Shown here piece after piece: positions 2,358-56,055 of a stretch of 64,000 nucleotides of DNA. How positions within the stretch are numbered: position 1 is the stretch's first letter; each line of letters begins with the position of its first letter. Source of the DNA: Acidovorax sp. RAC01 (lineage in GTDB: Bacteria > Pseudomonadota > Gammaproteobacteria > Burkholderiales > Burkholderiaceae_C); assembly GCF_001714725.1 (NCBI RefSeq), contig NZ_CP016447.1, forward strand, positions 2,185,001 through 2,249,000, read 5' to 3'. Under the pieces are notes generated by a model. The model made no database searches, had not been told where the DNA came from, and saw nothing but the letters and a program-made list of their open reading frames with translations. The position numbers and the translations under genes are program-made.

Positions 2358-2830
2358 TCGGCGTGCTGCAGCGCGTGCGCGAGGCGCGCGTGGAGGTGGA
2401 CGGCCAGACCGTGGGCGCCATCGGCCAGGGCCTGCTGGTGCTGGTGTGCGCCGAGCGCGGCGACACCGAGGCCGAGGCCGACCGGCTGCTGGCCAAGCTG
2501 CTCAAGCTGCGCATCTTCAGCGACGACGCGGGCAAGATGAACCGCAGCGTGCAGGATGTGGATGGACGCGGAACGTGTGGCGGCCTGCTGCTGGTCAGCC
2601 AGTTCACCCTGGCGGCCGACACGGCGGGCGGCAACCGCCCCAGCTTCACCCAGGCGGCGGCGCCCGACGAAGGGCGGCGGCTGTACGACTACGTGGTGGC
2701 CCAGGCGCGCACGCTGCACCCCGTGGTGGCCACCGGCCAGTTTGCGGCCGACATGCAGGTGCATCTGGTCAACGATGGGCCGGTGACCATACCGCTGCGC
2801 ATGGCGCCGGCAGCTCAATTGCTATCATAA
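2354..2830 (+). CDS. dtd: D-aminoacyl-tRNA deacylase
   Basis: Cytoplasmic proofreading enzyme that hydrolyses D-aminoacyl-tRNA (and mischarged Gly-tRNA(Ala)). The 158-aa product carries both signature motifs: SQFTLAA in the middle, holding the catalytic backbone, and GPVTIPLRM at the C-terminus with the cross-subunit Gly-Pro. It overlaps the CDF gene by 4 bp. The natural end of the family is close to the PLRM motif. Here about eight extra residues follow, and the last few codons and the TAA come from an AT-rich dispersed repeat that begins at 2817, so the C-terminal tail looks repeat-derived. Confidence 0.95.
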
Positions 2831-2879
2831 ACATAGCTAAAGAGCTATATAAATCAAGCGATAAAGCCCGTTTTGGCTA
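2817..2879 (+). repeat. AT-rich dispersed repeat, copy 1 (gene-end type)
   Basis: A 60-bp low-GC block between two convergent genes. It matches the skeleton shared by nine other copies in this window: GCTAT, six or seven A/T-rich bases, ATAGC, a spacer, CAAGCG, then a G/C pair region and a T run. It supplies the TAA stop of dtd on one strand and the TAG stop of the MFS gene on the other (cta at 2877-2879). Confidence 0.8.
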
Positions 2880-4130
2880 TTTGTTTGAGCCTGACAGCAG
2901 CGGCGACACCGGCAGCAGCCTGAAACCCGCCGACGCCAGCGCCAGCCACACCGCAATGGCCAGCATGACGGCGCTGTAGCCATCCCAGCCCCACCGCTGC
3001 GCCCAGGTGGCCACGATGCCCGTGAACCACTGCATCAGCGCCACGCCCAGAAACATGGCCATCGTGTAGGCCGACAGCGCCCGGCCTGTGAGCGCAGGGG
3101 GGTACGAGGCGCGCACGTCGGCGTACTGCAGCACGCCGTAGCCCGACAGCAGCCCCATCAGCAGGATCAGCACCACGCTGGCGGCGGGGTGCACGCGCCA
3201 GAGCGCCAGCAGCGCAAACATCCCGGCCATCAGCAGCGAGGCGTTGCCGATCCAGCGCCGGCGGCGGGCAACGCCCGGGTCCAGCCGGCCCGCCAGGCCC
3301 GGCGCAAACAGTGCAATCAGCGACAGCCCGAGCGCCACGTTGCCGCTGTCCACCAGCGAGAGGTGGTAGCGGTCCATCAGCAGCGGCGCCAGCCACAGGC
3401 CACGCAGCGACAAAAACGCCGCATAGCCCGACATGCCCAGCAGCAAAATGCCCCAGGTGTGCGGCACCGTGAGCAGCTGGCCAAAACCCAGCAGCGCCTG
3501 GCCCCACGTTTCGCGCTGCGCCGCGGGCGGCACCAGCGGCGCGGGCTCGTGCACGCGCAGCCAGATCAGCAGCCACGACAGCGCACTGAGCACCGCCAGC
3601 ACGGCATACCCCATGCGCCAGCCGCCGCCGTGCTGCACCAGCCAGGCCAGCGGCGTGCCCGTGAACAGCAGGCCCAGCCCGCCCACACCCATGGCCACAC
3701 CCGACAGGTACGCAAACCGCTCTGCCGGAAACTGCCGCGCGATGAACAGGGTGCAGGCCAGAAAGGCGGGCGAGCAGCCCACGCCGATCAGGAGCTGCCC
3801 TGCCATCAGCCAGGGGTAGCTGGGCGCGGCGGCCGACAGCGCAGAGCCTGCCACCGCCAGCGGAAACGCGGCGAGCACCGTGCGCCGCAGGCCATACAGG
3901 TCCAGCCCCACGCCCATCAGCAGTTGCGCCACGCCAAACGACAGGCCGAACAGCCCGGCGAACGCACCCAGCGCTCCGGGCGACAGGCCGAAGTCGGCCA
4001 TCAACCCTTGCGCCACGATGCCCGTGGTGGTGCGAAACGCCTGGCTCAGCGCGAAGCCGCTGAGCAGCGTGAGCAGCATGGCCCACAGGGCGCGGGCAGG
4101 CGGGCGGCCGCTGCCCGCAGTGGCGGACAT
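2877..4130 (-). CDS. MFS transporter
   Basis: Major facilitator superfamily permease, 417 aa, with about twelve hydrophobic segments in two halves. The family loop between helices 2 and 3 is visible as GLDLYGLRRTV, matching G-x-x-D-x-x-G-R-R. The substrate is unknown. The ATG at 4130 was chosen (MSATAGSGRPP). An alternative GTG at 4154 would overlap the stop of the upstream TauE/SafE gene as GTGA, which would fit coupling, but it adds eight residues of little family character. It is probably co-transcribed with the TauE/SafE gene. The TAG stop lies inside dispersed repeat copy 1. Confidence 0.87.
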   Translation of the reverse strand: MSATAGSGRPPARALWAMLLTLLSGFALSQAFRTTTGIVAQGLMADFGLSPGALGAFAGLFGLSFGVAQLLMGVGLDLYGLRRTVLAAFPLAVAGSALSAAAPSYPWLMAGQLLIGVGCSPAFLACTLFIARQFPAERFAYLSGVAMGVGGLGLLFTGTPLAWLVQHGGGWRMGYAVLAVLSALSWLLIWLRVHEPAPLVPPAAQRETWGQALLGFGQLLTVPHTWGILLLGMSGYAAFLSLRGLWLAPLLMDRYHLSLVDSGNVALGLSLIALFAPGLAGRLDPGVARRRRWIGNASLLMAGMFALLALWRVHPAASVVLILLMGLLSGYGVLQYADVRASYPPALTGRALSAYTMAMFLGVALMQWFTGIVATWAQRWGWDGYSAVMLAIAVWLALASAGFRLLPVSPLLSGSNK

Positions 4131-4150
4131 CAGCGGCGGTGTGCTGTCCT

Positions 4151-4897: not shown

Positions 4898-5037
4898 AAC
4901 ATCTCCTTGGCCGCGGCGTGGCGCACGCGGCATTGCACCGATCTTAGGTGCAGGTGGAGGGGTGGCCAGTCGTGATTGCGACTGTAAAAGGTGGGACTGC
5001 TTTGCCGGGCCCCCCGGCCTGCCACTGCGGCGATGGC

Positions 5038-5493
5038 TCAGGCGTACGGATCTTCAAACCCCATCTCACGCAGGATGTCGGTTTCGTACGCCTCCATGTC
5101 GTCCGCATCGGCCTCGCTGGTCTCGTGGTCCCAGCCCTGGGCGTGCAGGGTGCCGTGCACCAGCATGTGGGCGTAGTGCTCTTCCAGGGTCTTGTTCTGC
5201 TCCTGCGCCTCGCGCTCGATCACGGGGGCGCACAGCACCAGGTCGGCTGTCACCACAGGCTCTTGCGTGTAGTCGAACGTGAGCACATTGGTGGCGTAGT
5301 CCTTTTGGCGGTACTCGCGGTTGAGCTGGCGGCCTTCGTCCTCGCCCACGATGCGCACGGTGATCTCGGCGTCGGTGGCCAGCGCGTGGCGAATCCAGCG
5401 GGTGACCTTGTGGCGGGGCAGCACGGCGCGGTGGGTGGCTGCGCCGTCAAAGGTGCCGAACTGCAGCGACAGGGAGAGTTGGTTCAGGGGCAT
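5038..5493 (-). CDS. ybeY: Endoribonuclease YbeY
   Basis: Metal-dependent single-strand RNase involved in 16S rRNA 3' maturation and late ribosome quality control; 151 aa, full length. The zinc site is intact: HGTLHAQGWDH fits the family H-x3-H-x5-H motif. It lies downstream of phoH (ybeZ) on the same strand with a 77-bp spacer holding a dispersed repeat. In many proteobacteria the order is ybeZ-ybeY-ybeX(corC)-lnt; here corC-lnt are 48 kb away, so the classical cluster is split. Confidence 0.96.
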   Translation of the reverse strand: MPLNQLSLSLQFGTFDGAATHRAVLPRHKVTRWIRHALATDAEITVRIVGEDEGRQLNREYRQKDYATNVLTFDYTQEPVVTADLVLCAPVIEREAQEQNKTLEEHYAHMLVHGTLHAQGWDHETSEADADDMEAYETDILREMGFEDPYA

Positions 5494-5502
5494 TTTTTGG
5501 GT

Positions 5503-5562
5503 GTTTTAGGCCTCTGGGGCTCGATGGTAAAGCGCTGACAGCTATCAAATCAGGAGTGCAAT
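5503..5562 (-). repeat. AT-rich dispersed repeat, copy 2
   Basis: It lies between the phoH stop and the ybeY start. Read on the minus strand it shows TTTGATAGCTGTCAGCGCTT followed by a CCAGAGGCC block and an A run, aligning with the other copies. Being transcribed between two co-directional genes, it would sit in their mRNA. Confidence 0.75.
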
Positions 5563-5570
5563 CGAAGGGC

Positions 5571-14929: not shown

Positions 14930-15000
14930 AGTTTGCTATTCAATCAATAGCTTAAAAGGCTTTGGGAGTAAGCGCTACGGGCTAATCTGGCCTTGAAAAC
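14930..15000 (+). repeat. AT-rich dispersed repeat, copy 3 (between convergent genes)
   Basis: It starts TTTGCTATTCAATCAATAGC and continues through AAGCGCTA to CTGGCCTTGAAAA. It lies between the stop of the ABC ATPase and the stop of the convergent hydroxylase/lysoplasmalogenase gene, and is one of the best-preserved copies in the window. Confidence 0.8.
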
Positions 15001-15017: not shown

Positions 15018-16838
15018 TCAGGACGGCCGTGCCGCCGTCTCGGCGCGAGTGTCCATGGGCGTGTGCGCGCAGGCCTCGCCCTGGACTGCGCGCTGTGCTG
15101 CACGGTCCCGGGCCAGGCCCGACAGCCACCCGCCGACGATCAACGCCTGCGCTGCGTAGTAGGTGCCCAGCACCCAGACCTGCGCCATCGGCAGCGGCGT
15201 CACAAAACGGTTCGTAGCCAGCAGCGAATCGCTGAGCATGAAGAACCCCGCGCCGACGGCCACCATCACCGAAGGCGCATCGCGCAATACCGTCGCCCGC
15301 CCGATGGCCTGGGCCGCCATCAGCGCGATCACCAGCACATAGGCGGCCACCGGCACGCGCAGCGCCGGGGGCAAGCCGCCAGTCCACAGGAAGGCATACA
15401 TGGCCACACCAATGCCCAGGGTGGTGGCCAGGGCGCCCCGGTGCGGAAACCACTGCTGGCCGCCTTTGAACAGCGCCACGTAAAACAGGTGCGCCACCAG
15501 AAAGCTCACCAGCCCAGGGATGAAGAACCCGGGCAGCATGAGAAACACATCGCCCGCCAGCGATCCGGTGAGCGCTGCCAGCATGAAAACACGGTTCTTC
15601 GTGCTGAATTGGCCGCCATCGCTTGCCTTGGTTGAATTAATGGCTATTAAAATAATAGCAATCACCATGGTCAGCGGCTTGAACAGCAGGTGCCACTGCG
15701 CCAGCCCCAGCGCACTGGTGGCGGTGGCCAGGGCCGCGCTTTGCAGCATCAGTGCCATCAGCATGCCGATGCGCCCCTGCATCACGGCGCCCAGTGACCA
15801 TTGGGCCGTCAGCAGCACGGCAAACCAGATGGCGTTGTGCGCCAGCGGCGCTGCATCGGCCCGCCACAGAAAGACCGCCACGCCCGCCAGCAGCGCGGCA
15901 AACTGCGCCAGCGCAAACCACTGCACGGCGCGCGACATGGGCGGCTGGTACCGCTGCATCTGCGCCAGGCTGAACGCCGGCTTTGGAAAGCGCTGCGCCA
16001 CATCGGACGGTCGCCAGCCGGGGGGCTTGACCCACACCCGGAGCTTGTCAGCCCAGCTGCGGGCGTGCCAGCTGTCGTGCGCCAGCCCCGCGTACACCTG
16101 TGCGTTGGCCCACAGCGGGTCCCAGCTGTTGAGCAGGCCGCGTGTGCCGTACACGCACTTCTCGCGGTCATCCTCGTCCTTGAAGGTGCCAAAGAGCCGG
16201 TCCCACACGATGAGGATGCCGCCGTAGTTCTTGTCCAGGTAAGGGTCGTTCACCGCATGGTGCACCCGGTGGTTGCTGGGGCTGCAAAACCACCGGTCAA
16301 ACCAGCCGAGCTTGCCGACCTGCTCGGTGTGCACCCAGAACTGGTAGAGCAGGTCGATGAGCGCCACCACCGCAAACACCAGCGGCGGCACGCCCGCCAG
16401 CGCCATGGGCACGTAGAACACCCAGCCCAGCAGCGCGCCCGAGCTGGTCTGGCGCAAGGCGGTGGAAAGGTTGTAGTCCTGGCTCTGGTGGTGCACGGCG
16501 TGCGCGGCCCACAGCACGGCCGATTCGTGCCCCATGCGGTGCAGCCAGTAGTAGCAAAAATCGTAGAACACCAGCGCCAGCAGCCAGCCGGGCAGGCTGG
16601 TCCAGAAGGCGTCGCTGCGCCACAGCGCCACATGCTCGAACAGTGCGGTGTAGATGCCCATGCGCAGCAGGCGCGTGAACACGGCACTGGTCTGGCTCAG
16701 CATCCCCAGGCTGATGCTGCTCACCGCATCGGCCAGGCGGTAGGTGTTGCGCTGGCGACGGTAGCCCACAGCCAGCTCGACTGCGATCAGCAACAGAAAA
16801 ACCGGCGTGGCAAGAACAATGATCTGGGTGGGGCTCAT
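15018..16838 (-). CDS. Fusion: fatty-acid-hydroxylase (sterol desaturase/AGMO-like) plus lysoplasmalogenase (YhhN/TMEM86-like)
   Basis: A 606-aa polytopic membrane protein. The N-terminal half (about residues 1-260) belongs to the di-iron fatty acid hydroxylase superfamily: histidine clusters HRMGHE near residue 101, AVHHQ near 117 and NHRVHH near 195 are complete. The C-terminal half (about 345-590) shows the YhhN/TMEM86 pattern: FKPLTM, SLAGDVFLMLPG, LVAHLFYVALF and a final GTYYAAQALIV. The first family includes alkylglycerol monooxygenase and the second hydrolyses the vinyl-ether bond of lysoplasmalogens, so a single ether-lipid-cleaving polypeptide is plausible (inference). Residues about 392-411 (IILIAINSTKASDGGQ) are encoded by an AT-rich dispersed repeat lying in frame. 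The ATG at 16838 precedes MSPTQIIVL, a membrane helix. Confidence 0.88.
   Translation of the reverse strand: MSPTQIIVLATPVFLLLIAVELAVGYRRQRNTYRLADAVSSISLGMLSQTSAVFTRLLRMGIYTALFEHVALWRSDAFWTSLPGWLLALVFYDFCYYWLHRMGHESAVLWAAHAVHHQSQDYNLSTALRQTSSGALLGWVFYVPMALAGVPPLVFAVVALIDLLYQFWVHTEQVGKLGWFDRWFCSPSNHRVHHAVNDPYLDKNYGGILIVWDRLFGTFKDEDDREKCVYGTRGLLNSWDPLWANAQVYAGLAHDSWHARSWADKLRVWVKPPGWRPSDVAQRFPKPAFSLAQMQRYQPPMSRAVQWFALAQFAALLAGVAVFLWRADAAPLAHNAIWFAVLLTAQWSLGAVMQGRIGMLMALMLQSAALATATSALGLAQWHLLFKPLTMVIAIILIAINSTKASDGGQFSTKNRVFMLAALTGSLAGDVFLMLPGFFIPGLVSFLVAHLFYVALFKGGQQWFPHRGALATTLGIGVAMYAFLWTGGLPPALRVPVAAYVLVIALMAAQAIGRATVLRDAPSVMVAVGAGFFMLSDSLLATNRFVTPLPMAQVWVLGTYYAAQALIVGGWLSGLARDRAAQRAVQGEACAHTPMDTRAETAARPS
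15606..15662 (-). repeat. AT-rich dispersed repeat, copy 4, in frame inside the hydroxylase/lysoplasmalogenase gene
   Basis: On the minus strand it reads TTGCTATTATTTTAATAGCC, then about 20 bases, then CAAGCGATGGCGGCCAA, the same skeleton as intergenic copies. It has the same orientation as the gene and codes without a stop, forming the end of a membrane helix and the next loop in the lysoplasmalogenase half. Confidence 0.8.
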
Positions 16839-21018: not shown

Positions 21019-21813
21019 TCACATCAACGAAAAATCGCGGTCGAACTTCATCAGGTGCTGGCCGCCGTCGACCAGCAGCGTGGTGCCGGTGATGGACCGG
21101 TTTTCCAGCGCGAACTTCACGGTGGCTGCCACGTCTTCAGGGGTGGACGAGCGGCCCAGCGGGCTCAGGGAATGCAGCTGGGCAAACTTGTCGTCGCTGA
21201 GCATGTGGCTGGTGAGCGTGAGGCCCGGGGCCACGCCCACCACGCGCACGCGCGGTGCCAGCGCCAGGGCCAGCATGGTGCCGGCGGCTTCCAGCGCGGC
21301 CTTGGAGAGCGTGTAGCTCAGAAAGTCGGGGTTCTGGTTCCAGAGCTTCTGGTCCAGCAGGTTCACCACGGCGCCCTGCGCATCGGCTTCGCCCCGGGCC
21401 GCGCGGTCGGCGATGTGCTGGTGCAGCGCCTGCGCCAGCAGCACCGGCGCCCCGGTGTTGCTGCGCAGGTGCTTTTGCAGCGCGTCAAAGCCGAAGGTAT
21501 CCACGCTGTCGTGCTCGAACAGCGAGGCGCTGTTGACCACGGCATCCACGCTGCCGAAGTGCGTCACCACGCGGGGCAGCAGGGCCCGTACGGCGGCTTC
21601 GTCGTCAAAATCGGCCTCAAAATGGGCGCTGGCGCTTGTCAGCGAAGCACATTCAGCTACTGTATTAATAGCATCCTGCTCTGACGAGCGGTAGTGCACC
21701 GCCACCTGCCAGCCGCCGGCGGCCAGGGCCAGTGCGATGTGGCGGCCCAGGCGCTTGGCAGCGCCAGTGACCAGCACCGTGCGGGGGCGTGTGGGAAGGG
21801 GTGGGGTGGACAT
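21019..21813 (-). CDS. Short-chain dehydrogenase, pteridine reductase (PTR1/FolM)-like
   Basis: NADPH-dependent SDR, 264 aa. The nucleotide-binding motif is VTGAAKRLG, the form seen in pteridine reductases, rather than the common TGxxxGxG. The catalytic set appears as Asp in NLLDQ (PTR1 uses Asp where classical SDRs have Ser), Tyr and Lys in YTLSK, then VGVAPGLTL. This and the position next to folB favour a dihydropterin or dihydromonapterin reductase. Residues about 47-66 (DAINTVAECASLTSASAHF) are encoded by an in-frame dispersed repeat. The ATG at 21813 was chosen; the gene is divergent from, and about 10 bp away from, the methyltransferase start. Confidence 0.85.
   Translation of the reverse strand: MSTPPLPTRPRTVLVTGAAKRLGRHIALALAAGGWQVAVHYRSSEQDAINTVAECASLTSASAHFEADFDDEAAVRALLPRVVTHFGSVDAVVNSASLFEHDSVDTFGFDALQKHLRSNTGAPVLLAQALHQHIADRAARGEADAQGAVVNLLDQKLWNQNPDFLSYTLSKAALEAAGTMLALALAPRVRVVGVAPGLTLTSHMLSDDKFAQLHSLSPLGRSSTPEDVAATVKFALENRSITGTTLLVDGGQHLMKFDRDFSLM
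21614..21673 (-). repeat. AT-rich dispersed repeat, copy 5, in frame inside the SDR gene
   Basis: The minus strand reads TGCTATTAATACAGTAGC, then about 19 bases, then ACAAGCGCCAGCGCCCATTTT, the same skeleton as the intergenic copies. It lies in gene orientation and forms residues about 47-66, in the second beta-alpha unit after the cofactor-binding loop. Confidence 0.8.
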
Positions 21814-21823: not shown

Positions 21824-22942
21824 ATGCGGGCCGTGACCCAAAGACCCGAGAGTTTAACGACCGCCCTTGCGCAGCACATCGCCCAGGCCATTGCCGCCGC
21901 GGGCGGCTGGCTGGGCTTTGACCGCTTCATGGAACTGGCCCTGTACACCCCGGGGCTGGGCTACTACGCCAACGATTCCACCAAGTTCGGTGCCATGCCG
22001 GACTCGGGCAGCGACTTTGTGACCGCACCCGAGCTGACGCCGCTGTTTGGCCAGACGCTGGCCGTGCAGGTGGGCCAGGCGCTGGCGCAGACCGGAACCG
22101 ACGAGGTGTGGGAGTTCGGGGCGGGCTCGGGCGCACTGGCGCTGCAGCTGCTCGATGCCCTGGGCGACCAGGTGCAGCGCTACACCATCGTGGATCTGTC
22201 GGGCAGCCTGCGGGCGCGCCAGCAGGCAAAGCTGGTGGCGCACGCGCACAAGGTGAAGTGGGTGGATGCGCTGCCCGAAACCTTCAGCGGCGTGGTGGTG
22301 GGCAACGAGGTGCTGGACGCCATGCCCGTGCAGCTGCTGGCGCGCCACGGCGGCCACCAGGCCGGGGTGTGGCACGAGCGCGGCGTGGTGCTGGCCGATG
22401 ACGGCAGCTTTGCCTGGGCAGACCGCCCCTCGCACCTGCGCCCGCCGATCGCCATCGAAGGCCCGCAGGACTACCTGACCGAAACCCACGCCCAGGGCGA
22501 AGGGTTCATCCGCATGCTGGCCGACCGGCTCACGCGCGGCGCGGCCTTTTTGCTGGACTACGGCTTTGGCGAAGACGAGTACTACCACCCGCAGCGCCAC
22601 ATGGGCACCGTGATGTGCCACCAGGGCCACATGGCCGACGGTGATCCGCTGGTGAACGTGGGGCTCAAGGACATCACCGCCCATGTCAACTTCACCGCCA
22701 TGGCGCTGGCGGCGCAGGATGCGGGCCTGCAGGTGCTGGGCTACACCACGCAGGCGCATTTCCTCATCAATTGCGGATTGCTACCAAAAATGGAGCATCT
22801 CACCCAGGCGGAGCGTGCCACAGCGGCCAAATTGATCATGGAACATGAAATGGGCGAGCTGTTCAAGGTGCTGGCACTGGGCGCTGGCGAGCCGTGGGAG
22901 CCGCTGGGCTTTGCGCACGGCGACCGCTCGCACCGCCTCTGA
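21824..22942 (+). CDS. MidA/NDUFAF7-like SAM-dependent methyltransferase
   Basis: Class I methyltransferase of the MidA (DUF185, NDUFAF7) family, 372 aa from the chosen ATG. Family marks are GWLGFDRFMELALYTPGLGYY at the N-terminus, DFVTAPELTPLFGQ, the SAM loop WEFGAGSGALA, GNEVLDAMPV, and the late block LLDYGFGEDEYYHPQRHMGT. In mitochondria the homologue methylates an arginine of a complex I subunit; the bacterial target is unproven. Possible starts are ATG 21812, ATG 21824 or GTG 21833; 21824 follows a G-rich Shine-Dalgarno-like stretch. It is divergent from the SDR with almost no spacer. Confidence 0.88.
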   Translation: MRAVTQRPESLTTALAQHIAQAIAAAGGWLGFDRFMELALYTPGLGYYANDSTKFGAMPDSGSDFVTAPELTPLFGQTLAVQVGQALAQTGTDEVWEFGAGSGALALQLLDALGDQVQRYTIVDLSGSLRARQQAKLVAHAHKVKWVDALPETFSGVVVGNEVLDAMPVQLLARHGGHQAGVWHERGVVLADDGSFAWADRPSHLRPPIAIEGPQDYLTETHAQGEGFIRMLADRLTRGAAFLLDYGFGEDEYYHPQRHMGTVMCHQGHMADGDPLVNVGLKDITAHVNFTAMALAAQDAGLQVLGYTTQAHFLINCGLLPKMEHLTQAERATAAKLIMEHEMGELFKVLALGAGEPWEPLGFAHGDRSHRL

Positions 22943-27095: not shown

Positions 27096-28346
27096 TCAGT
27101 GCGCCCGGGCGCCTTCGAGCCACTGCCCCACAGCCGCCACTCGCGCCTGGTGAATCAGCGTGCCCACCTGCGGGCCGCTCATGCCGCGGGCTGCGGCATC
27201 GGCCGCAATGTCGCGCGTGACCACAGCCTGCACGGCGCCCAGCGCTGCCAGCAGGCGAGGGCGCTGCGGGTAGGCGGCTTCTTCCAACCCCAGCCGGCCG
27301 CGCGCATCGCATTCACACGCCAGCAGAATGTCGGCAAAGCGCTCGGGCTTGCGGATGGCATCGCAGCGCTCCAGCAGCCGCACGAGTGCCGCGGCTGAAA
27401 GCTCTCCGCTGCGGTGGATGTTGCCGTGCTCGCGCGCCACCACGTCGGCGGTCTCGCGGCAATCCAGCGGTACGCGCAGGCGCTCGGCCACGGCCTTGAG
27501 CAGGCGGGCGCTGCGCTCCTCGTGGCCGATGTGGCGCGGCAGCACATGGGCGGGCGTGGTGCCCTTGCCCAGGTCGTGCGCCAGGCAGGCAAAGCGCACC
27601 ACCAGCGGCGCCTGCAGCCGGGCGGCCATGTCCAGCACCATCATCAGGTGCACGCCGGTGTCCACCTCCGGGTGGTATTCGGCGCGCTGGGGCACGCCCC
27701 ACAGGCGGTCCACCTCGGGCAGCAGCACCTTCAGGGCCCCACACGCGCGCAGCACCTCGAACATGCGCGAGGGTTTTGCCTCCATCAGCCCCCGGGCCAG
27801 TTCCTGCCACACGCGCTCGGCCACCAGGTGGTCAGCTTCGCCATGCTCGACCATCTCGCGCATGAGTCCCATGGTCTCGGGCGCCACCGTGAAGTCGGTA
27901 AAGCGCGCGGCAAAGCGGGCCACGCGCAGGATGCGCACCGGGTCTTCGCGGAAGGCATCGGTCACATGGCGCAGAACGCGTGCCTGGAGGTCTGTGGCAC
28001 CGGAGTGGGGGTCAAAAAGGCCTTTGGCGCTTGAACCAATTGGTCCTTCTGCTATGGAATTAATAGTAAGGTCGCGCCGCGAGAGGTCCTGCTCCAGCGT
28101 GACGTCGGGCGAGCTTTGCACCACAAAACCGCGGTAGCCCTTGCCGCTTTTGCGCTCCGTGCGGGCCAGCGCGTACTCCTCGCGCGTGTCGGGGTGCAAA
28201 AACACCGGAAAGTCGCGCCCCACCGGCAGGTAGCCCAGCTCCAGCATCTGCTCAGGCGTAGCGCCCACCACCACCCAGTCGTGGTCGTTCACGGGGCGGC
28301 CCAGCAGCTTGTCGCGGACAGCGCCGCCCACCATGTAGATTTGCAT
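27096..28346 (-). CDS. cca: CCA tRNA nucleotidyltransferase with HD domain
   Basis: Adds or repairs the 3' CCA end of tRNA; 416 aa from ATG 28346. The start [12 protein letters not shown] begins the nucleotidyltransferase domain with NDHDW (catalytic Asp pair), [18 protein letters not shown] and [23 protein letters not shown] sequence (here [13 protein letters not shown]). An HD domain follows (LAHDLGKG). Between RRDLTIN and the DPHSG motif lies a loop, residues about 92-111, encoded by an in-frame dispersed repeat; relatives usually have a shorter link there (from memory). The frame extends 32 codons upstream, but this has no family sequence. Confidence 0.95.
28012..28070 (-). repeat. AT-rich dispersed repeat, copy 6, in frame inside cca
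   Basis: The minus strand reads ACTATTAATTCCATAGCAG, a spacer, then TTCAAGCGCCAAAGGCCTTTT, with end-to-end match to gene-end copies. It encodes [19 protein letters not shown], starting within the conserved RRDLTIN motif and ending at the DP of the next motif. Confidence 0.82.
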
Positions 28347-31995: not shown

Positions 31996-32373
31996 ATGAA
32001 AAAAATCCTGATCATCGAGGATCACGCCTCCGTACGCGATCTGTTCCGGCTGGCGCTCGAAGATGGTCCCTTCCAGTTCCATGAGGCCGGCACGGGTGAT
32101 GCCGGCTGGGAGATGGCCTGCGAGATCCTGCCTGACATCGTGCTGCTGGATGTGTTGCTGCCCGGGCAATTGGGTGGGCTGGACGTTTGCAGGCTCATCA
32201 AGGCGGACCCTCGCACGCGCGGGGCGCGGGTGATCATCGTGAGCGGTGCCCGGGTGCACGCCGCAGACCGGGCAGACGGGGTGGCGGCAGGCGCAGACCA
32301 TTACCTTGTCAAGCCCTTCAGCACGGCGCGCCTGATCGAGGCCGTTCATGCTGCACACACGGCCATGTACTGA
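31996..32373 (+). CDS. Stand-alone receiver-domain protein (1 of 3)
   Basis: A 125-aa CheY-like single-domain response regulator without an output domain. It has acidic residues in LIIEDHAS, the phospho-acceptor Asp in DIVLLDVLLPG near residue 52, Thr/Ser in VSGAR and Lys in YLVKPFS. It shares an unusual set of blocks with the proteins at 36994 and 37461: GDAGW after the second strand, P-D-I-V-L-L-D-V and (D/E)VCRLIKA(D/E)P. ATG 31996 was chosen (MKKILIIED); a longer frame upstream has no domain. It lies directly after the MITE-like element. Confidence 0.9.
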   Translation: MKKILIIEDHASVRDLFRLALEDGPFQFHEAGTGDAGWEMACEILPDIVLLDVLLPGQLGGLDVCRLIKADPRTRGARVIIVSGARVHAADRADGVAAGADHYLVKPFSTARLIEAVHAAHTAMY

Positions 32374-36993: not shown

Positions 36994-37380
36994 ATGACCC
37001 GTATCCTGATCGTGGAAGATCAACTCGACATCCGCAAACTCCTGCGCATGACGCTGGAGTTCGATGTCTCGGAAATTCGCGAGGCCGAAACGGGCGACGC
37101 AGGCTGGGCCATCGCGATGGAAATGCGCCCCGACATCGTCCTGCTGGACGTGATGCTGCCCGGCAAGCTCAATGGGCTGGAGGTCTGCCGCCTGATCAAG
37201 GCCGAGCCTTCGCTCAAGCACACCAAGGTGGTGATGATCTCGGCCCGCGCCCTGTCGGAAGACAAGGACGCCGGCCTGGCCCAAGGTGCTGACGTGTACA
37301 TGGCAAAACCGTTCAGCGCCGTACAGCTGATCGACGTGATCTACCGGCTGCAGGAACCCGACGGCGCTGCGGCCCCATAG
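36994..37380 (+). CDS. Stand-alone receiver-domain protein (2 of 3)
   Basis: A 128-aa CheY-like protein. Acidic pair in LIVEDQLD, phospho-acceptor Asp in DIVLLDVMLPG near residue 52, conserved Ser in MISAR and Lys in YMAKPFS. It shares GDAGW and LEVCRLIKAEP blocks with its two paralogues here. No output domain. It may act as a phosphate sink or by protein contact with the neighbouring kinase, receptor or c-di-GMP enzyme (inference). Confidence 0.9.
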   Translation: MTRILIVEDQLDIRKLLRMTLEFDVSEIREAETGDAGWAIAMEMRPDIVLLDVMLPGKLNGLEVCRLIKAEPSLKHTKVVMISARALSEDKDAGLAQGADVYMAKPFSAVQLIDVIYRLQEPDGAAAP

Positions 37381-37460: not shown

Positions 37461-37889
37461 GTGAGATCCGATCCCCGTACACCGACCCTGCTGGCCGCCC
37501 CCATCTTGAGAACCGTCCTCATCATTGAAGACCAGGCAGACATCCGGCAGCTCATACGGCTCACGCTGGAGGACCAGCCCTTGGCTCTGCACGAGGCCGA
37601 TAACGGCGGCGCCGGCTGGGACGCCGCGCAGGCGCTGCGGCCCGACATCGTGCTGCTGGATGTGACCATGCCTGGCGCGCTCAACGGGGTGGACGTCTGC
37701 CGCCTCATCAAGGCGGACCCGCGCACGCGCCATGCCGCGGTCATCATGCTCACGGCCCGCTCGCAGCTTGCAGACCGCAAGGCTGCGATAGCGGCCGGTG
37801 CCAATGCCTACCTGGTCAAGCCGTTCAGTGGCAAGGGGCTGGTCAAGGCCGTGCACAGCGTCACGGGTGATTCCGACGCGATGGGGTGA
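37461..37889 (+). CDS. Stand-alone receiver-domain protein (3 of 3)
   Basis: A 142-aa CheY-like protein, or about 127 aa if translation starts at TTG 37506. LIIEDQAD, phospho-acceptor Asp in DIVLLDVTMPG, Thr in MLTAR and Lys in YLVKPFS are present. It shares GAGW and VDVCRLIKADPRTR with the protein at 31996, to which it is closer than to the 36994 one. The GTG at 37461 gives a 15-residue extension without domain character, so the start is uncertain. It lies 80 bp downstream of the second receiver gene on the same strand. Confidence 0.87.
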   Translation: MRSDPRTPTLLAAPILRTVLIIEDQADIRQLIRLTLEDQPLALHEADNGGAGWDAAQALRPDIVLLDVTMPGALNGVDVCRLIKADPRTRHAAVIMLTARSQLADRKAAIAAGANAYLVKPFSGKGLVKAVHSVTGDSDAMG

Positions 37890-41368: not shown

Positions 41369-41393
41369 GGCTGTGGGGTGGATGGTGGCTGAA

Positions 41394-41453
41394 ATGCTAT
41401 TTAATCAGTAGCTATAAAAGCTTTGCAGGAGCGCCTTAAAGGCCTTTTTGGTG
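41394..41453 (+). repeat. AT-rich dispersed repeat, copy 7 (between convergent genes)
   Basis: It begins 26 bp after the slt stop: TGCTATTTAATCAGTAGC, spacer, GGAGCGCCTTAAAGGCCTTT. It lies between slt and the convergent metallo-beta-lactamase-fold gene. The rest of 41454-41600 is GC-rich with no gene seen. Confidence 0.8.
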
Positions 41454-41600
41454 CTCAAAAGATACGAAGGGGCTCGCTGCGCGGCTGATGCGCCTGGTGG
41501 CAGCGCGCGGTCACGCAGATGGCCGGCGGTGCCTTCAGACCCGTGCCAGAGGAGGTGAGGCACCACCCTGCGCCCTGGCGCCTTGCCGACGCCCCTGGCT

Positions 41601-45461: not shown

Positions 45462-46361
45462 ATGATCGCGCGCTGGCAACAAATCCTTTTTTTCATCCAC
45501 TGGCTGGGCGTGGCCGCCTGGCTGGCCTGGCAATGGCCCCAGTCACCGGCGCGGGCAGTGGCGGGTGCGCTGGCGCCGCTGGCGATCTTTGTGCTGGTGA
45601 TGACAGTGGAATTTGCGCTGATGCACCACGCCAACCGGCGCGACCCGGCGCCCCGGGCACGGCTAGCCGAGGTGGTGGCGGCCTGGTGGGCCGAGCTGCG
45701 TGTGGCGCTGCTGGTGTTCGGCTGGCGTCAGCCCTTTCGCCACCGGGCCGTGCCCGACTGGCTGCCACCCGTGCCCACCGGCCAGCGTGGAGTGGTGCTG
45801 GTGCACGGCTTCATGTGCAACCGCGCGCTGTGGCTGCCGTGGTTGCCGCTGTTGCGCGAGCGGGGGCATGCGCACATGGCGGTCAACCTGGAGCCCCCAA
45901 TGGGCTCCATTGACGACTATTCCCACATCATTGACGCAGCCGTGCAGCGGGTGACGGCTGCCACCGGCATGCCACCCGTGCTGCTGTGCCACAGCATGGG
46001 CGGCCTGGCGGCCCGTGCCTGGCTGCGTGCGCACCCGGATGCGCAGGCGCGGGTGCACAAGGTGCTAACGCTGGGCACGCCCCACGGCGGTACGTGGCTG
46101 GGGCGCTTCAGCACGGCGGTGAACGGGCGGCAAATGAGCCTGGCGGGGGACTGGGTGGTGGCGCTCGGGCGTTCAGAGTCGCCGGAGTTGGGGAGGAAGT
46201 TTGTGTGCTGGTTTTCCAACTGCGACAACATCGTTTTTCCGGCGAGTACGGCTGCGTTGGCGGGGGCGGATAACCGGCTGGTGCAGGGGGTGGCGCATGT
46301 GGAGATGGCGCTGGATGAGGGGGTGGTGCGGGAGTGCCTGGAGGAGGTGGGGCGGGGGTGA
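45462..46361 (+). CDS. Membrane-anchored alpha/beta hydrolase (lipase-like)
   Basis: A 299-aa protein. Two N-terminal membrane helices (about residues 8-25 and 32-54) tether an alpha/beta hydrolase domain. GVVLVHGFMCNRALW is the oxyanion-hole region. The nucleophile elbow is LLCHSMGGLAARAW near residue 172, i.e. C-H-S-M-G instead of G-H-S-x-G, and TLGTPHGGTWLGRF follows. The catalytic His is probably the one in QGVAHVEMAL near the C-terminus. An esterase, lipase or thioesterase role is likely; substrate unknown. The 3' end is less GC-biased at third positions. Repeat copy 8 follows. Confidence 0.85.
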   Translation: MIARWQQILFFIHWLGVAAWLAWQWPQSPARAVAGALAPLAIFVLVMTVEFALMHHANRRDPAPRARLAEVVAAWWAELRVALLVFGWRQPFRHRAVPDWLPPVPTGQRGVVLVHGFMCNRALWLPWLPLLRERGHAHMAVNLEPPMGSIDDYSHIIDAAVQRVTAATGMPPVLLCHSMGGLAARAWLRAHPDAQARVHKVLTLGTPHGGTWLGRFSTAVNGRQMSLAGDWVVALGRSESPELGRKFVCWFSNCDNIVFPASTAALAGADNRLVQGVAHVEMALDEGVVRECLEEVGRG

Positions 46362-46369
46362 ATTTGAGG

Positions 46370-46427
46370 TTGAAGTGGGGTGTAGCGCTTGTTGCGTAAA
46401 GGGTGGTTGCTATCTAATTTGATGATT
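46370..46427 (-). repeat. AT-rich dispersed repeat, copy 8
   Basis: It lies directly after the alpha/beta hydrolase stop. On the minus strand it reads AATCATCAAATTAGATAGCA, spacer, CAACAAGCGCTACACCCC, matching the family skeleton, with more divergence in the final GGCC block. It forms the left border of the 1.2-kb gene-free region. Confidence 0.65.
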
Positions 46428-47505
46428 GGGTTCGGCTTCTGGCGCGGTGTTTGTCTGTTTGCACTGGGCGTGCCAAAGGGCCGTGGCACGCGCTACATCC
46501 GTTCGGGCGGAGCCCGTCGAAGCCCGGGTGCTACCCATACCCGTTCGGGCTGAGCCTGTCGAAGCCGGGGCGTGCTGGTTTGAAAGGCATGCCCGGGTTG
46601 AGGGCGGGAGCCGGGAGTCGCCCGGCGTGCGAGTAACTTTCTTTTGGCTCGCCAAAAGAAAGTCACCAAAGAAAAGGCGACCCTCAGTCTGCGACCCCTT
46701 CGCTTCGCTGCGGGGCAAACCTGCGCCGGGGCGGTTGCGGGGTGCGCCGCGGAACTCGCTTTGCGCTGGCGCGCGCCGCTCGGACAACCACGGCGAGTCA
46801 GATCACGAAGCACGCGCGCTCCGACGCGCGTGCCACCCCGCAACCGCCCCGGCGCAGGCGCAGCCAGAAGGGGTGGGGGGCCGAACAGCCGAACAGCCAC
46901 ACGGGTCATCGCTGCGCTCGACCCGCAACGCGCGGCGCGCAGCGCTCGCGCTCCCCTGCCGGGGCCGAGCGAAGCAATGGCCCGAAGGGATGTCCTCTCC
47001 CCAATCCCCTCTGTATGCGCCGAGGAGCGCAGCGGGCGGGGTGGCGCGTGTGCCGAAGGACACGCGCGCTTCGTGAACTGACTCGCCGCAGCTGTTTGAG
47101 CGGAGCTGCAACGCAGCGCAGCGAGTTCTGCGGCGCACCCCGCCCGCGAGCACCGCAGGTTGCCCCGGAGCGAAGCGCAGGGGACGCAGACAGTGGGGTC
47201 GCCCTTTCTTTGGTTCCTTTCTTTCGGCGACGCGAAAGAAAGGGACTCGCACGCCGGGCGACTCCCGGCTCCTGCCCTGAACAAAGGCACGCGGTAACCA
47301 CCGCCAAACCAGGCTTCGACAAGCTCAGCCCGAACGGGTTGGAGCAGTGCTCAGGCTTCGTCAACCTCAGCTCGAACGGACACGGGCACTGCGCAGGCTT
47401 CGACAGCACAGCCCAAACGGTTAACGGCAAGTGACAGAGCTTCGACAAGTCTCCTCAGGAAGACCTGCACTGCGCTCCCCCCAAAGCCACCCATCCAACC
47501 CCTAA
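46428..47505. repeat. Gene-free nested inverted-repeat structure
   Basis: Two imperfect arms face each other: 46601 to about 46850 and about 47030 to 47278, reading GGAGCCGGGAGTCGCCCGGC inward from both ends and continuing through ACCAAAGAAA, GGCGACC, CGCTTCGCT, GGGGCAA, GCGCCGC, GCGAGTCAG and CACGAAGC. Each arm holds its own hairpin: ACTTTCTTTTGGC/GCCAAAAGAAAGT (46636-46663) and CCTTTCTTTCG/CGAAAGAAAGG (47217-47244). Outside the arms lie 25-bp REP-like units (TTCGGGC-GAGCC-GTCGAAGCC): two in one orientation (46501-46524, 46542-46566) and three or four inverted (47312-47336, 47354-47378, 47396-47420, decayed 47438-47460). Long frames on both strands mirror each other and are not believable genes. 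Confidence 0.8.
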
Positions 47506-47565
47506 AAAGCTATGAAATAAATAGCATAAAGAGTCAATAAAACAAGCCCTGAAGGCTTATTTGAC
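47506..47565 (+). repeat. AT-rich dispersed repeat, copy 9
   Basis: AAAGCTATGAAATAAATAGCA, a spacer of AT-rich sequence, then AACAAGCCCTGAAGGCTTATTT. It ends 8 bp beyond the phhA stop codon. With copy 8 on the other side it brackets the inverted-repeat region. Confidence 0.78.
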
Positions 47566-47572
47566 TGAAAAA

Positions 47573-48430
47573 TCAAGCCGCGACGACCACCCCATCCCGC
47601 TCATCCGCCGCAAACTCTGCCAACCCCTGCAACTCCTCATAAATCGGCGCAAAGTCCGCCGCCGTCATGTCAAACAGCTGCTCAAAACTGTCGATCACAA
47701 AATACGTCTGCTGGTACGTATCAATCTTGTAGCGCGTGCGCATGGTGCGCGCCAGCGCCAGCGGAATCCGCTGCGGCTCGGGGCTTTGCACGGCGTAGGC
47801 CAGTTCGCCCGCTGAACTCAAAATACCCGCCCCATACGCCCGCAGCCCGCCCGCCTCGCGGATCAGGCCGAACTCTATGGTGTACCAGTACAGCCGGCTG
47901 AGCATCTCGCAGGCGCCCAGGCCCTGGGCCTTCAGGCCGCCCTGGCCGTAGCGCTGCACGTAGTCAGCAAACACCGGGTTGAACAGCAGCGGCACATGGC
48001 CGAACAGGTCGTGAAAGATGTCGGGTTCGACGATGTAGTCGAACTCCTCGGGCTTTCGGATCCAGTCCGTCACCGGGAATTGGCGGTTGGCCAGCAGGGT
48101 GAAGAACGGCACCTCGGGGATCAGCCCCGGCACGCCCACCAGCTCCCAGCCGGTGGCCTTGTGCAGGCGCTCGTTCACCTCTTCAAAGCGCGGAATCCGG
48201 TCGCTCGCGCCCAGCGAGGGCAGGGCGGCGATGAACGCCTCGCTGGCCAGCCCGGGCAGCAGTGCGCGCTGGCGTTCGTACAGGCGGCGGTAGGTGTCGT
48301 GGTCGGCCTCGGTGTAGGCGGCAAAGTTCTGGGCACAGGTGTAGTCGGCCTGGGCGCGGCTGTAGTCGCCGCGGGGCGGGCGCTCGCTGGCGCCATACAC
48401 GACAGGTTTGACAACCGGTTCGGTGACCAT
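47573..48430 (-). CDS. phhA: Phenylalanine 4-monooxygenase
   Basis: Non-heme iron, tetrahydropterin-dependent hydroxylase converting phenylalanine to tyrosine; 285 aa, bacterial monomeric length. The iron ligands are in PDIFHDLFGHVPLL (two His) and the Glu of YWYTIEFGLI; VPGLIPEVPFFTLLANRQFPVTDWIR is the conserved pterin-binding part. It lies 14 bp downstream of hpd on the same strand, making a Phe-to-homogentisate unit. The pterin carbinolamine dehydratase (phhB) usually paired with it is not in the window. Confidence 0.96.
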   Translation of the reverse strand: MVTEPVVKPVVYGASERPPRGDYSRAQADYTCAQNFAAYTEADHDTYRRLYERQRALLPGLASEAFIAALPSLGASDRIPRFEEVNERLHKATGWELVGVPGLIPEVPFFTLLANRQFPVTDWIRKPEEFDYIVEPDIFHDLFGHVPLLFNPVFADYVQRYGQGGLKAQGLGACEMLSRLYWYTIEFGLIREAGGLRAYGAGILSSAGELAYAVQSPEPQRIPLALARTMRTRYKIDTYQQTYFVIDSFEQLFDMTAADFAPIYEELQGLAEFAADERDGVVVAA

Positions 48431-50733: not shown

Positions 50734-50736
50734 CGC

Positions 50737-53395: not shown

Positions 53396-53536
53396 TCCTG
53401 CCTTCGTGTCGCCAGGCCGGCCCCAGTGCAGGCGCTCGCGGTGAACAGGTGACGTGCAGTCTTCGTCTGACGGCGTCCTGTCACGGCGATCCGCTATCCT
53501 AGGGGCCTGATTCACTACCGCACGTCGTGCACTCCA

Positions 53537-54421
53537 GTGTCTGACCCGCACCCCGCGCACCCCGGGCGACCGCCCGAACGGGAAGACAAGCGCACCTTCC
53601 TGCAAAAAGTGGCCGAGTTCATTCACCCGGGGCCTGATTCCCGGGAAGAACTCATCGAAACCCTGGCCGATGCCGAAGACAACGACGTCATCGGGGCTGA
53701 GTCCCGCGTGATGCTGGAGCGGGTGATCCGCATGGCCGACATGAGCGCGCGCGATGTGATGGTGGCCACCCCGCGCATGGATCTCGTCAACATCGACGCG
53801 CCGTTTGAAGACCTGCTCCACCTGGTGATCACCACCGCGCATTCGCGGTTTCCGGTATACCAGGGCGAGCGCGACAACATCATCGGCATCCTGATGGCCA
53901 AGGACCTGCTCAAGCTGCAGCGCGCCCCCGAGCTGAACATCCGCGCGCTGCTGCGCCCGGCGGTGTTCGTGCCCGAGAGCAAGGGCCTGAACGACCTGCT
54001 GCGCGAGTTTCGTGGCAACCGCAACCACCTGGCGATCGTGATCGACGAGTTCGGCCGCGTGGCGGGCCTCGTCACCATCGAAGACGTGCTCGAACAGATC
54101 GTGGGCGAGATTGAAGACGAGTTCGACATCCCCGAAGACAACGGCGACATTTTTGGCCTGGCCGACCGCACCTACCGCGTGAGCGGCGACACGCCGGTGG
54201 AGCGCGTGGCCGAGGCGTTTGAAGTGACCTTGCAGGGCACCGACCCCGATGCGCAGTTCGACACCATCGGCGGGCTGATCGCCCACGAGATGGGCCACCT
54301 GCCGCGCCGCGGCGAACAGGTGCAGCTCGGTGGACTGCAGTTTGTGGTGCTCCATGCCAAGGGCGGATCGGTGCGCTGGTTCAAGGTATCGCGGGTCGAC
54401 GACACCAGCGCTGACGGCTGA
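53537..54421 (+). CDS. corC: CorC/YbeX-type CBS-pair protein
   Basis: A 294-aa cytoplasmic protein with two CBS domains (about residues 68-190; DVMVATPRMDLVNID and LLREFRGNRNHLAIVIDEFGRVAGLVTIEDVLEQIVGEIEDEF) and a C-terminal CorC/HlyC transporter-associated domain (about 205-285). It lacks the DUF21 membrane part, as YbeX does. Linked to Mg/Co homeostasis and ribosome-related phenotypes in other bacteria. It starts with GTG, and its TGA overlaps the lnt ATG (TGATG). Confidence 0.93.
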   Translation: MSDPHPAHPGRPPEREDKRTFLQKVAEFIHPGPDSREELIETLADAEDNDVIGAESRVMLERVIRMADMSARDVMVATPRMDLVNIDAPFEDLLHLVITTAHSRFPVYQGERDNIIGILMAKDLLKLQRAPELNIRALLRPAVFVPESKGLNDLLREFRGNRNHLAIVIDEFGRVAGLVTIEDVLEQIVGEIEDEFDIPEDNGDIFGLADRTYRVSGDTPVERVAEAFEVTLQGTDPDAQFDTIGGLIAHEMGHLPRRGEQVQLGGLQFVVLHAKGGSVRWFKVSRVDDTSADG

Positions 54422-56055
54422 TGGCGCGCAGCCGATCCCGTGCGGGGCTGCCGTTGGCCCTGCAGTGCGTGCTGGCGCTGGGTGCGGGCCTGGCCCAGGC
54501 CGCATCCTTGGCGTGGCCGGGCACAGGGCAGCCGCTGTGGTGGCTGCAGATGCTTTCCATGATGGTCTTGGCCGCGCTGCTGCTGCAGGCGCAGCGGCAC
54601 CCGGCGCCGTTTCGGCGCGGGGCGCTTCTGGGCGGCGTGTTTGCCACCGCCTGGCTGGCGGGCACGTTCTGGTGGCTGTTCATATCCATGCACACCTACG
54701 GCGGGCTGGCGGCGCCGCTGGCGGTGGCCGCCGTTTTGGGGCTGGCCGCGTTCTTGGGAAGCTACTACGCAGTCGTTTTGGGGTTTTTTAGCCGCCTTGC
54801 GCCCGTCAATCATGCTTTTTCAGCTATCTTTTTCGGAGCATTCTGGTTGCTGGCCGAACTGGCGCGCGCCACGTGGTGGACGGGTTTCCCGTGGGGAGCC
54901 GTGGGCTACGCCCATGTGGACGGACCGCTCGGTGTGCTGGCGCGCAGCGTCGGCGTGTACGGCGTGGGCGCGGTGGCCGCAGCGCTGGCCCTGCTGCTGG
55001 TGCAGTGCCGCCCCGCGCATCTGCGCAGCGCGCGGGCCTGGGCCCTGGCGGCCGTGCTGTTAGCAGTGTGGGGTGCGGCTGCCGTGCAGCGCCACTGCGC
55101 GGTAGAGCTGTGCCAAACACCGGTGGCCCGCGCAGCAGCGCCCATCACCCTGGAACTGCTGCAGGGCAACATCCCGCAGGATGAAAAGTTCCAGCCCGGC
55201 AGCGGCGTGCCGCTGGCGCTCAAGTGGTATGCCGACACCCTCAAGGCCGCCACAGCCGACCTGGTGGTGGCGCCTGAAACCGCCATTCCGCTGTTGCCCC
55301 AGCAGCTGATGCCGGGCTACCTCGAAGGCATCGCCGGGCACTTTGCACAGACGGGCCGCGCCGTGCTGCTGGGCATCCCCATGGGCGACGAGGCGCAGGG
55401 CTACACCAACTCGGTGCTGGGCATGGGCCCGGGGCAGGGTGATGCGGCATCGGCCTACCGGTATGACAAGCACCATCTGGTGCCCTTTGGCGAATTCATC
55501 CCACCCTTCTTCCGGTGGTTCACAGCCATGATGAACATCCCCCTGGGCGACTTCAACCGTGGCGAGGTGGGGCAGCCCTCGTTTGAGTGGAAAGGGCAGC
55601 GTATTGCGCCCAACATCTGCTATGAGGATCTCTTTGGTGAAGAAATCGGTGCGCGCTTCATCGACCCGGCCCAGGCCCCCACCGTGCTGCTCAACTTCAG
55701 CAACATCGGCTGGTTTGGCGATTCGCTGGCCATCGACCAGCACCTGCACATCAGCCGCATGCGGGCGCTGGAGTTCGAGCGGCCCATGGTGCGCGCCACC
55801 AACACCGGTGCCACGGCCGTCATCGACCACCGCGGCGTGGTCACCCACGCATTGCAGCGCCACACGCGCGGCGTGCTGCAGGCCGAGGTGCACGGCCGCG
55901 GCGTGGATGCCGCAAGCGGCTGGGCGATCACGCCTTATGCGTGGTGGGTGTCGCGGTGGGGGCTGTGGCCGTTGTGGGCCGTGGGGGCGCTGGCGCTGGC
56001 AGGGGCCCTGTTCGCCAACAGGGCGGCACGGGGCCGCCGGGGGCTTGGCGATTGA
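54421..56055 (+). CDS. lnt: Apolipoprotein N-acyltransferase
   Basis: Inner-membrane enzyme that N-acylates the lipid-modified Cys of lipoproteins; 544 aa. Several N-terminal membrane helices are followed by a nitrilase-fold periplasmic domain: catalytic Glu in VVAPETAIPLLP, Lys in YDKHHLVPFGEFIP and Cys in APNICYEDLF, with FSNIGWFGDS after. Residues about 118-140 (VVLGFFSRLAPVNHAFSAIFFG) are encoded by a diverged dispersed repeat lying opposite to gene direction. Coupled to corC by TGATG overlap. Confidence 0.95.
   Translation: MARSRSRAGLPLALQCVLALGAGLAQAASLAWPGTGQPLWWLQMLSMMVLAALLLQAQRHPAPFRRGALLGGVFATAWLAGTFWWLFISMHTYGGLAAPLAVAAVLGLAAFLGSYYAVVLGFFSRLAPVNHAFSAIFFGAFWLLAELARATWWTGFPWGAVGYAHVDGPLGVLARSVGVYGVGAVAAALALLLVQCRPAHLRSARAWALAAVLLAVWGAAAVQRHCAVELCQTPVARAAAPITLELLQGNIPQDEKFQPGSGVPLALKWYADTLKAATADLVVAPETAIPLLPQQLMPGYLEGIAGHFAQTGRAVLLGIPMGDEAQGYTNSVLGMGPGQGDAASAYRYDKHHLVPFGEFIPPFFRWFTAMMNIPLGDFNRGEVGQPSFEWKGQRIAPNICYEDLFGEEIGARFIDPAQAPTVLLNFSNIGWFGDSLAIDQHLHISRMRALEFERPMVRATNTGATAVIDHRGVVTHALQRHTRGVLQAEVHGRGVDAASGWAITPYAWWVSRWGLWPLWAVGALALAGALFANRAARGRRGLGD
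54776..54840 (-). repeat. AT-rich dispersed repeat, copy 10, inside lnt (diverged, antisense)
   Basis: The minus strand reads TGCTCCGAAAAAGATAGCTG, AAAAAGCATGATTGAC, then GGGCGCAAGGCGGCTAAAAAA: the ATAGC, the GCGCAAG(G)CGGC and the A run correspond to the family skeleton, but the first CTAT is lost. It covers a membrane helix of Lnt. A local drop in G+C supports it; it is the weakest of the ten copies. Confidence 0.55.

Follow-up and report, generated by a model that had tools for sequence, protein, structure and literature searches.

An AT-rich repeat of about 70 bp is scattered over the chromosome of Acidovorax sp. RAC01, and in the genes that we tested its letters are kept where the encoded protein does not require them. 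This suggests that the motif is read by some component of the cell. The repeat was picked out in a stretch of 64,000 nucleotides (the window: contig NZ_CP016447.1, positions 2185001-2249000, within the single 4,574,859-bp contig that we scanned), where a first-pass annotation made from the letters alone had listed ten copies at gene ends and inside genes. We tentatively take the motif to be a recognition signal of ~70 bp, read as duplex DNA on the chromosomes of Comamonadaceae and perhaps serving as a self-DNA tag in the manner of uptake sequences.

The ten listed places belong to one repeat, and the described pattern is present, whole or in part, at all ten. We built a profile from seven of them (seeds at 2817, 14931, 15594, 21607, 28002, 41392 and 47505; non-seeds listed at 5503, 46370 and 54776) and iterated it over 864 kb, made up of the window and 40 further 20-kb stretches of the same genome. 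The seed-only model yielded 93 matches against 0 in the control, placing 5503 at E 0.12 and missing 46370 and 54776. The iterated profile yielded 114 matches at E<0.1 against 0 in reversed sequences, in which 2 matches appeared at E<1 and 5 at E<10; with reversed sequences rather than shuffles as the control, an excess no greater than chance is thus ruled out. The pattern GCTATN7ATAGC by itself occurs 207 times in the genome and once as its backward control. A cut-off of E<0.01 and the removal of opposite-strand overlaps (107 reduced to 104) left 104 copies, or about one per 8.3 kb, which extrapolates to ~550 copies per genome; the density, which the annotation had called notable, is nearer one per 8 kb than its one per ~6 kb. 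A further model (R1/A1) was made from 54 of the 104 copies, including 5503 and excluding 46370 and 54776. It recovers 54774-54843 (E 1.3e-4) and 46360-46429, the latter remaining weak because it reaches only E 0.013. In the whole-genome search with this model the best 150 of 1535 candidates were scored, and all 150 are matches at E<=1.9e-10; match counts from such searches are lower bounds.

Information falls to background beyond model columns -2 to 67, so the unit is some 70 bp rather than the ~60 bp first proposed. Its AT-richness was correctly noted: copies average 57% A+T in a window of 67% GC. The consensus is approximately WWTTGCTATTAAATTNATAGCTATAAGNGCWTATNAANCAAGCGCTAGAGGCCNATTTTGACCCNAAAAT. 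All 104 copies have AGC at positions 16-18 and G at position 39, and the motif is nearly free of indels (54 copies align without gaps, and 2 of 107 matches carry a net indel relative to the model). Pairwise identity among the 104 copies averages 0.50 and peaks at 0.757, with column-shuffled maxima of 0.671-0.743; neither near-identical copies nor subfamilies were found among them (best pair 75.7%, no long-range linkage between columns). Nothing in these identities points to recent copying; the copies nonetheless vary in quality, and those outside genes have leave-one-out scores of -29 to 87 bits, a few of them being poor.

Constraint at the DNA level was examined in copies inside four genes, encoding a short-chain dehydrogenase (SDR), a CCA/polyA-polymerase-type enzyme (CCA), LpxB and PurL. 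For each we assembled 30 Acidovorax sequences, own genome included, and left out 7 of the 120 because they had gaps or no frame. Each sequence was scored with a profile built solely from the 79 outside-gene copies and compared with 1000 synonymous randomisations of its own region. The observed score exceeded all 1000 randomisations in 112 of 113 sequences (SDR 28/28, CCA 30/30, LpxB 29/30, PurL 25/25), with mean observed bits of 42.6, 48.8, 19.4 and 55.1 for SDR, CCA, LpxB and PurL against randomised means of -13.4, -16.3, -34.5 and -14.3. Codons of conserved residues end in A or T in 61-68% of cases within the element and in 12-19% elsewhere in the same genes. Rare majority codons, defined as those making up <12% of the codons for their amino acid and common to >=80% of sequences, make up 8 of 55 codons within the element and 1 of 1913 outside it across the four genes (Fisher 2e-12). 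This measure was picked on SDR and CCA (5/27 vs 0/499) and applied unaltered to LpxB and PurL, where it gave 3/28 vs 1/1414 (Fisher 2.6e-5). In CCA, for instance, Ile ATA, which accounts for 2.5% of Ile codons, is found in 29/30 sequences, as is Thr ACT (29/30); in SDR, Val GTA occurs in all 25 sequences that have Val at the position and Ala GCT in 28/30. Codons outside the element have the same phylogeny, so shared ancestry cannot by itself account for the persistence of the rare ones. The other possibility raised at the outset, ordinary coding DNA conserved across distant families, is set aside: among 18 homologs of CCA and SDR, of which 17 belong to other families and one is a paralog from the same genus (L124), the best match reaches no more than E 2.5.

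Four of the ten copies had been said to lie in coding frames, and those at 15594, 21607, 28002 and 54774 do fall within predicted genes. The accompanying idea of coding insertions survives in part: the coding copies are real, but insertion is mostly not what they reflect, as the protein region changes by less than the element's size in 9 of the ten genes that we compared with homologs, at distances that vary and make the figures indicative. There is no net length change in SDR (a single-residue difference relative to one of six homologs), LpxB or AnmK; Lnt, which holds copy 54774, is 1 aa shorter relative to a solved homolog, and IleS is 9 aa shorter. PurL is longer by 7 aa, LeuS by ~6 and CobU by ~14. 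The CCA-type enzyme of Acidovorax has 4 aa more than all 12 sequences from other families. In ten other element-scoring genera of its own family its loop is longer by 4 aa in six, as read by a regular expression that underreads some loops (that of G157, counted among them, comes out longer when the reading extends as far as the next DP), and by 10 to 12 aa in four; 2 of 34 sequences, unmatched by the expression, were left out of this set. Longer CCA loops also occur in some genera without the element. By the same reading, the loop after RRDLTIN (window 28002-28071; L308-L335) spans 7-23 aa across genera of the family and 8 aa in three outgroup sequences.

Along the chromosome the motif mostly avoids coding sequence. 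With genes called by a home-made codon-usage caller (84% coding), 57 of the 104 copies are intergenic, 22 lie across a gene end and the remaining 25 fall within genes, corresponding to 0.565 copies per kb of noncoding DNA (intergenic and overlapping copies together) and 0.035 per kb of coding DNA. The preference for gene 3' ends seen in the window holds more widely: among 51 of the 57 wholly intergenic copies, density is 1.26 per kb between convergent genes, 0.39 between tandem genes and 0.24 between divergent ones. Orientation relative to tandem genes is even (13 same, 13 opposite), and in-gene copies run both ways, 11 in gene sense (9 of them in the frame GCT ATN) and 14 antisense. The best 150 of the 1535 genome candidates are spaced in a Poisson-like manner and divided 73 to 77 between strands; regular spacing and strand bias are absent among these 150 scored matches.

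The element also persists at syntenic intergenic sites. At four such sites in the window it is present, in the same orientation, in 21 of the 23 anchorable sequences, our own among them: in 2/3 at 2817 (own and G001, not G018), in 8/8 aligned sequences at 5492 (one of them only at E 0.1), in 4/5 at 14931 (own, G007, G015 and G011) and in 7/7 aligned sequences at 41392. The flanking intergenic DNA at these sites varies in length and, by eye, in sequence; nine further intervals without the element were inspected only.

The annotation mentioned similar motifs from intergenic regions of Comamonadaceae, and it is mainly in this family that the motif is found. In a survey of the family, with at most 42 candidates scored per genome so that match counts are lower bounds, 43 of 120 genomes match at E<=1e-3, and 25 of these have at least 24 matches and count as abundant. 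In a sample of the order (at most 33 candidates scored per genome, again giving lower bounds), 3 of 150 genomes match at E<=1e-5: our own, a second from the same family and a third, which has a single match, from a different family. A strict pattern search in named genomes returned at least 120 stretches; the 80 matches listed are mainly from Acidovorax, joined by Simplicispira, Giesbergeria, Paracidovorax, Ottowia, Polaromonas, Ramlibacter, Comamonas and metagenome-assembled genomes (MAGs) of Rubrivivax, as well as unplaced MAGs and individual contigs under the labels Gammaproteobacteria and Desulfobulbaceae. The element-bearing Desulfobulbaceae contig (L254) comes from a MAG bin, and mis-binning is possible. 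Of two Polaromonas plasmids, one has 2 places in 353 kb and the other 1 in 360 kb (together 3 in 714 kb), and the 6.0-Mb genome of another strain, Polaromonas sp. P2-4, has at least 138 matches. Nine IMG/VR viral contigs (L299-L307) hold the strict pattern; the seven searched whole, which like the others had been selected for containing a match, have 1-5 matches each. Several matches on some viral contigs of 35-65 kb could mean that phages of the family carry the element or that host DNA is included.

How such a distribution might have arisen can be sketched. The motif would be older than those genera whose CCA gene has it in common, and a conserved protein or complex would recognise it as double-stranded DNA. 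Copies would then be kept by selection or drive since DNA bearing the motif is favoured, and new ones would become fixed at tolerant places such as convergent gene ends and variable protein loops. The likeliest mechanism would be a self-DNA tag akin to the uptake sequences of Neisseria and Pasteurellaceae, built up through biased uptake and recombination. To our knowledge, DNA-uptake specificity is so far known in Neisseriaceae and Pasteurellaceae. A bolder version of this proposal, which we consider doubtful, is that the motif represents a third, independent lineage of genomic self-identity tag, in which a 70-bp duplex signal contacted at multiple points by a putative complex in Comamonadaceae governs DNA uptake and recombination or chromosome handling and overrides codon choice in core genes.

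Uptake sequences, as portrayed in the parts of PMC2397512 relied on here, belong to the core genome, are conserved, sit in permissive places and are absent from recently acquired genes; the same passages give a density of ~1 per 1.1-1.5 kb for the Neisseria-type DNA uptake sequence (DUS), and passages there and in PMC5217627 give core lengths of 10-12 nt for the DUS and a 9-nt consensus for the uptake signal sequence (USS). The present motif resembles both in being abundant (hundreds of copies), chromosome-wide, neutral in orientation, conserved inside genes and placed permissively. With regard to acquired DNA the comparison is mixed, as the two plasmids hold few places and yet the match-selected viral contigs hold 1-5 matches each. 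The motif differs in its 70 bp, 58 bits and density of ~1 per 8 kb, and on account of these differences we do not class it as a DUS.

Several observations count against a self-DNA tag or against recognition as such. The motif is far longer than a DUS, and sparser, and its 58.1 bits over 70 bp exceed the 14.0 bits required to mark ~550 sites; neither an uptake specificity nor a receptor for Comamonadaceae was found in the literature searched. The element is missing from 2 of the 23 syntenic sequences, and at site 14931 the genome without it is G030, the closest relative sampled. Within genes, one LpxB sequence of 30 fails the randomisation test, and mean synonymous diversity is not lower inside the element than outside it (SDR 0.308 vs 0.271, CCA 0.255 vs 0.247), so that just a share of the columns is held. 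YfiH, ~32 aa longer than its homolog, is the sole case that fits a full insertion. Finally, the spread of pairwise identities (0.070) is above that of column-shuffled copies (0.052-0.057).

The main rival, which we regard as almost as probable as the recognition tag, is a site of chromosome architecture or topology. In this view the motif would be bound by a nucleoid protein, a topoisomerase or a complex of the condensin type close to gene ends, where supercoils generated by transcription come together. It would account for the 3-5-fold higher density between convergent genes, the scarcity of the motif on the two plasmids and the DNA-level constraint within genes, and it would suit the behaviour of the AAA and TTT tracts, which interchange without base pairing: mutual information across the 104 copies is strong only between near neighbours and reflects swaps of these tracts. 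Tolerance alone could explain the convergent bias, however, and the Poisson-like positions show neither strand bias nor any obvious bias by replichore. A phasing of A/T content at 10-11 bp, suggestive to the eye, is not significant, being reached by 204, 497 and 835 of 5000 permutations at block sizes of 1, 2 and 3. An old, inactive mobile repeat, some copies of which were exapted and hence conserved, is a less likely account. Rickettsia palindromic elements have copies within protein genes in a preferred frame, and the gene-sense copies of our motif likewise favour one frame (9/11), although this preference may follow from a TAG carried in another frame of the motif. Sharp boundaries, fixed length and information well beyond need would fit such an element or a miniature inverted-repeat transposable element (MITE), as would the lengthening of CCA in four of ten other genera, PurL, LeuS, CobU and YfiH. 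Against this origin stand the unchanged lengths of SDR, LpxB and AnmK and the shortening of Lnt and IleS, the lack of both subfamilies and near-identical pairs, the absence of terminal inverted repeats on inspection of the consensus, and the synonymous constraint. The motif shares in-gene copies in a preferred frame with the Rickettsia palindromic elements, and differs from them in mostly bringing no insertion of element length (9/10) and in being conserved across species as DNA.

Two further explanations are both improbable, the second more so than the first. Repetitive extragenic palindromic (REP) elements, described in part of PMC3733652 as 20-40-bp palindromes with a tetranucleotide tag, are served by REP-associated tyrosine transposases (RAYTs), and our motif resembles a REP/REPIN-RAYT system in being abundant and mostly outside genes and in having a RAYT in the genome, with element-like sequence behind it at some of the RAYT loci. 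A single RAYT gene (Y1_Tnp, PF01797) occurs in our genome and RAYT genes in 23/25 element-rich genomes; element-like sequence in the same orientation lies 10-90 bp past the RAYT stop in 9/20 genomes (E<0.01 in 4/20, E 0.2-7 in the rest), and an ATAG before the second dyad looks like a tag. RAYT genes are also present in 65/95 other genomes, however, and mostly bear their own, distinct 3' palindromes, and we judged the link weak on these grounds. The present unit is moreover 70 bp long and constrained in genes, without a maintained hairpin: its dyads lack covariation, and 66.9% of cells in helix 2 are paired. A search by term in some REP/RAYT or HUH papers gave no mention of Acidovorax, Polaromonas, Delftia or Comamonas. 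An RNA-level element, whether terminator, mRNA stabiliser or riboswitch-like structure, is the least probable of all. Three weak dyads and the preference for gene 3' ends speak for it, together with a proportion of paired cells in the three-helix model of 71.4% against 69.8% in shuffles (reached by 11/500). A conserved secondary structure, which the first-pass annotation had proposed to look for, is nonetheless not supported, as the covariation measures of that model are not above shuffles (43-282 of 500 reach them). The even orientation among tandem genes, in-gene copies in both orientations and the lack of any Rfam match at the copies likewise argue against RNA.

As an observation in its own right, RAYT-type genes are found in 88 of 120 family genomes, mostly singly (L341, at G000:C1:838500-843300, and L342-L360). 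The palindromes behind them recur (GGGGTCAGA..., GGGGACAYAT...) in most of 20 loci, and the cognate repeat seems to be other than the element.

Fragments of the motif have been reported before. Table 7 of PMC5217627 (2017) gives GCTTAT(N)5AAGCG in Acidovorax ebreus and ATAGCT(N)22CAAAAG in Polaromonas naphthalenivorans, with 114 and 125 copies; both are called 'potential novel motifs' there, with no function assigned. In a comparison of registers, the first matches model positions 26-41 and the second, as a variant, positions 14-47, and both share the intergenic and convergent bias of our motif. The section containing that table deals in short fragments; the 70-bp unit, the family-wide range, the coding copies and the conservation are not in it. 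We found no fuller description in the literature searched, a search that left subscription papers largely outside, and the portion of the Rhodoferax paper PMC2755013 covered holds nothing bearing on the motif. One described repeat, the Beta-proteobacterial repeat element (BRE), is likewise known from Comamonadaceae and Bordetella with some copies in genes, according to part of PMC3110155, where it is ~90 bp long, has a GC content of 69% in Bordetella, forms tandem arrays and reaches at most 29 listed copies per genome. We rejected identity with BRE on the strength of this description, not of its sequence: the present motif is 57% A+T, 70 bp long and dispersed.

What is new here is a motif that looks like neither a folded RNA nor an active mobile repeat and that is conserved as DNA inside genes. 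Hundreds of conserved sites in a common environmental family affect codon choice and loops in core genes (such as those of the CCA-type enzyme, LpxB and PurL). Identifying the reader protein would show which of two things is at work, a new DNA-uptake specificity or a new system that organises the chromosome, and the conservation test turns this into a directly experimental question.

Table 1. Copies of the ~70-bp motif in the window (window coordinates; iterated, seed-only and A1 denote the models described in the text).
Feature	Coordinates	Strand	Status and score	Location
Copy	2817..2886	+	Seed; E 5e-5 (iterated)	Overlaps last 14 nt of dtd (2354-2830, +)
Copy	5492..5561	-	Non-seed; E 0.12 (seed-only), 1e-7 (iterated)	Upstream of ybeY (5038-5493, -), touching its start
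Copy	14931..15000	+	Seed; E 5.5e-8	Between convergent genes
Copy	15594..15663	-	Seed	Within FA-hydroxylase/YhhN gene (15018-16838), same orientation, frame GCT ATT
Copy	21607..21676	-	Seed	Within SDR gene (21019-21777); no net insertion, DNA-level constraint
Probable extra weak copy	22776..22845	+	A1, copy not in model; E 0.0045	Within gene 21824-22942
Copy	28002..28071	-	Seed	Within CCA/polyA-polymerase-type gene (27096-28346); +4 aa relative to other families, DNA-level constraint
Copy	41392..41461	+	Seed; E 7e-5	Between convergent genes
Weak degraded copy	46360..46429	-	Non-seed; E 0.022 on model columns 8-46, A1 E 0.013	Directly after gene ending at 46361
Copy	47505..47574	+	Seed; E 2e-4	3' end of biopterin-dependent hydroxylase gene (47573-48430, -)
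Copy	54774..54843	-	Non-seed; A1 E 1.3e-4	Within apolipoprotein N-acyltransferase gene (54421-56055), opposite orientation

The copies in the window are collected in Table 1; that at 22776-22845 was absent from the earlier list of ten, and that at 2817..2886 also covers the final 10 nt of a minus-strand gene starting at 2877. Two other kinds of repeat were noticed in the same DNA. Nested GC-rich inverted repeats, with arms of up to 97 nt that are 85% complementary, occupy 46498-47404 beside the weak copy at 46360; they are of a different, GC-rich type, for which a comparison with BRE is conceivable. A direct repeat of ~205 nt is present in three copies (32006-32210, 37004-37208 and 37516-37720), which overlap predicted genes and have 67-73% identity to the reference copy.

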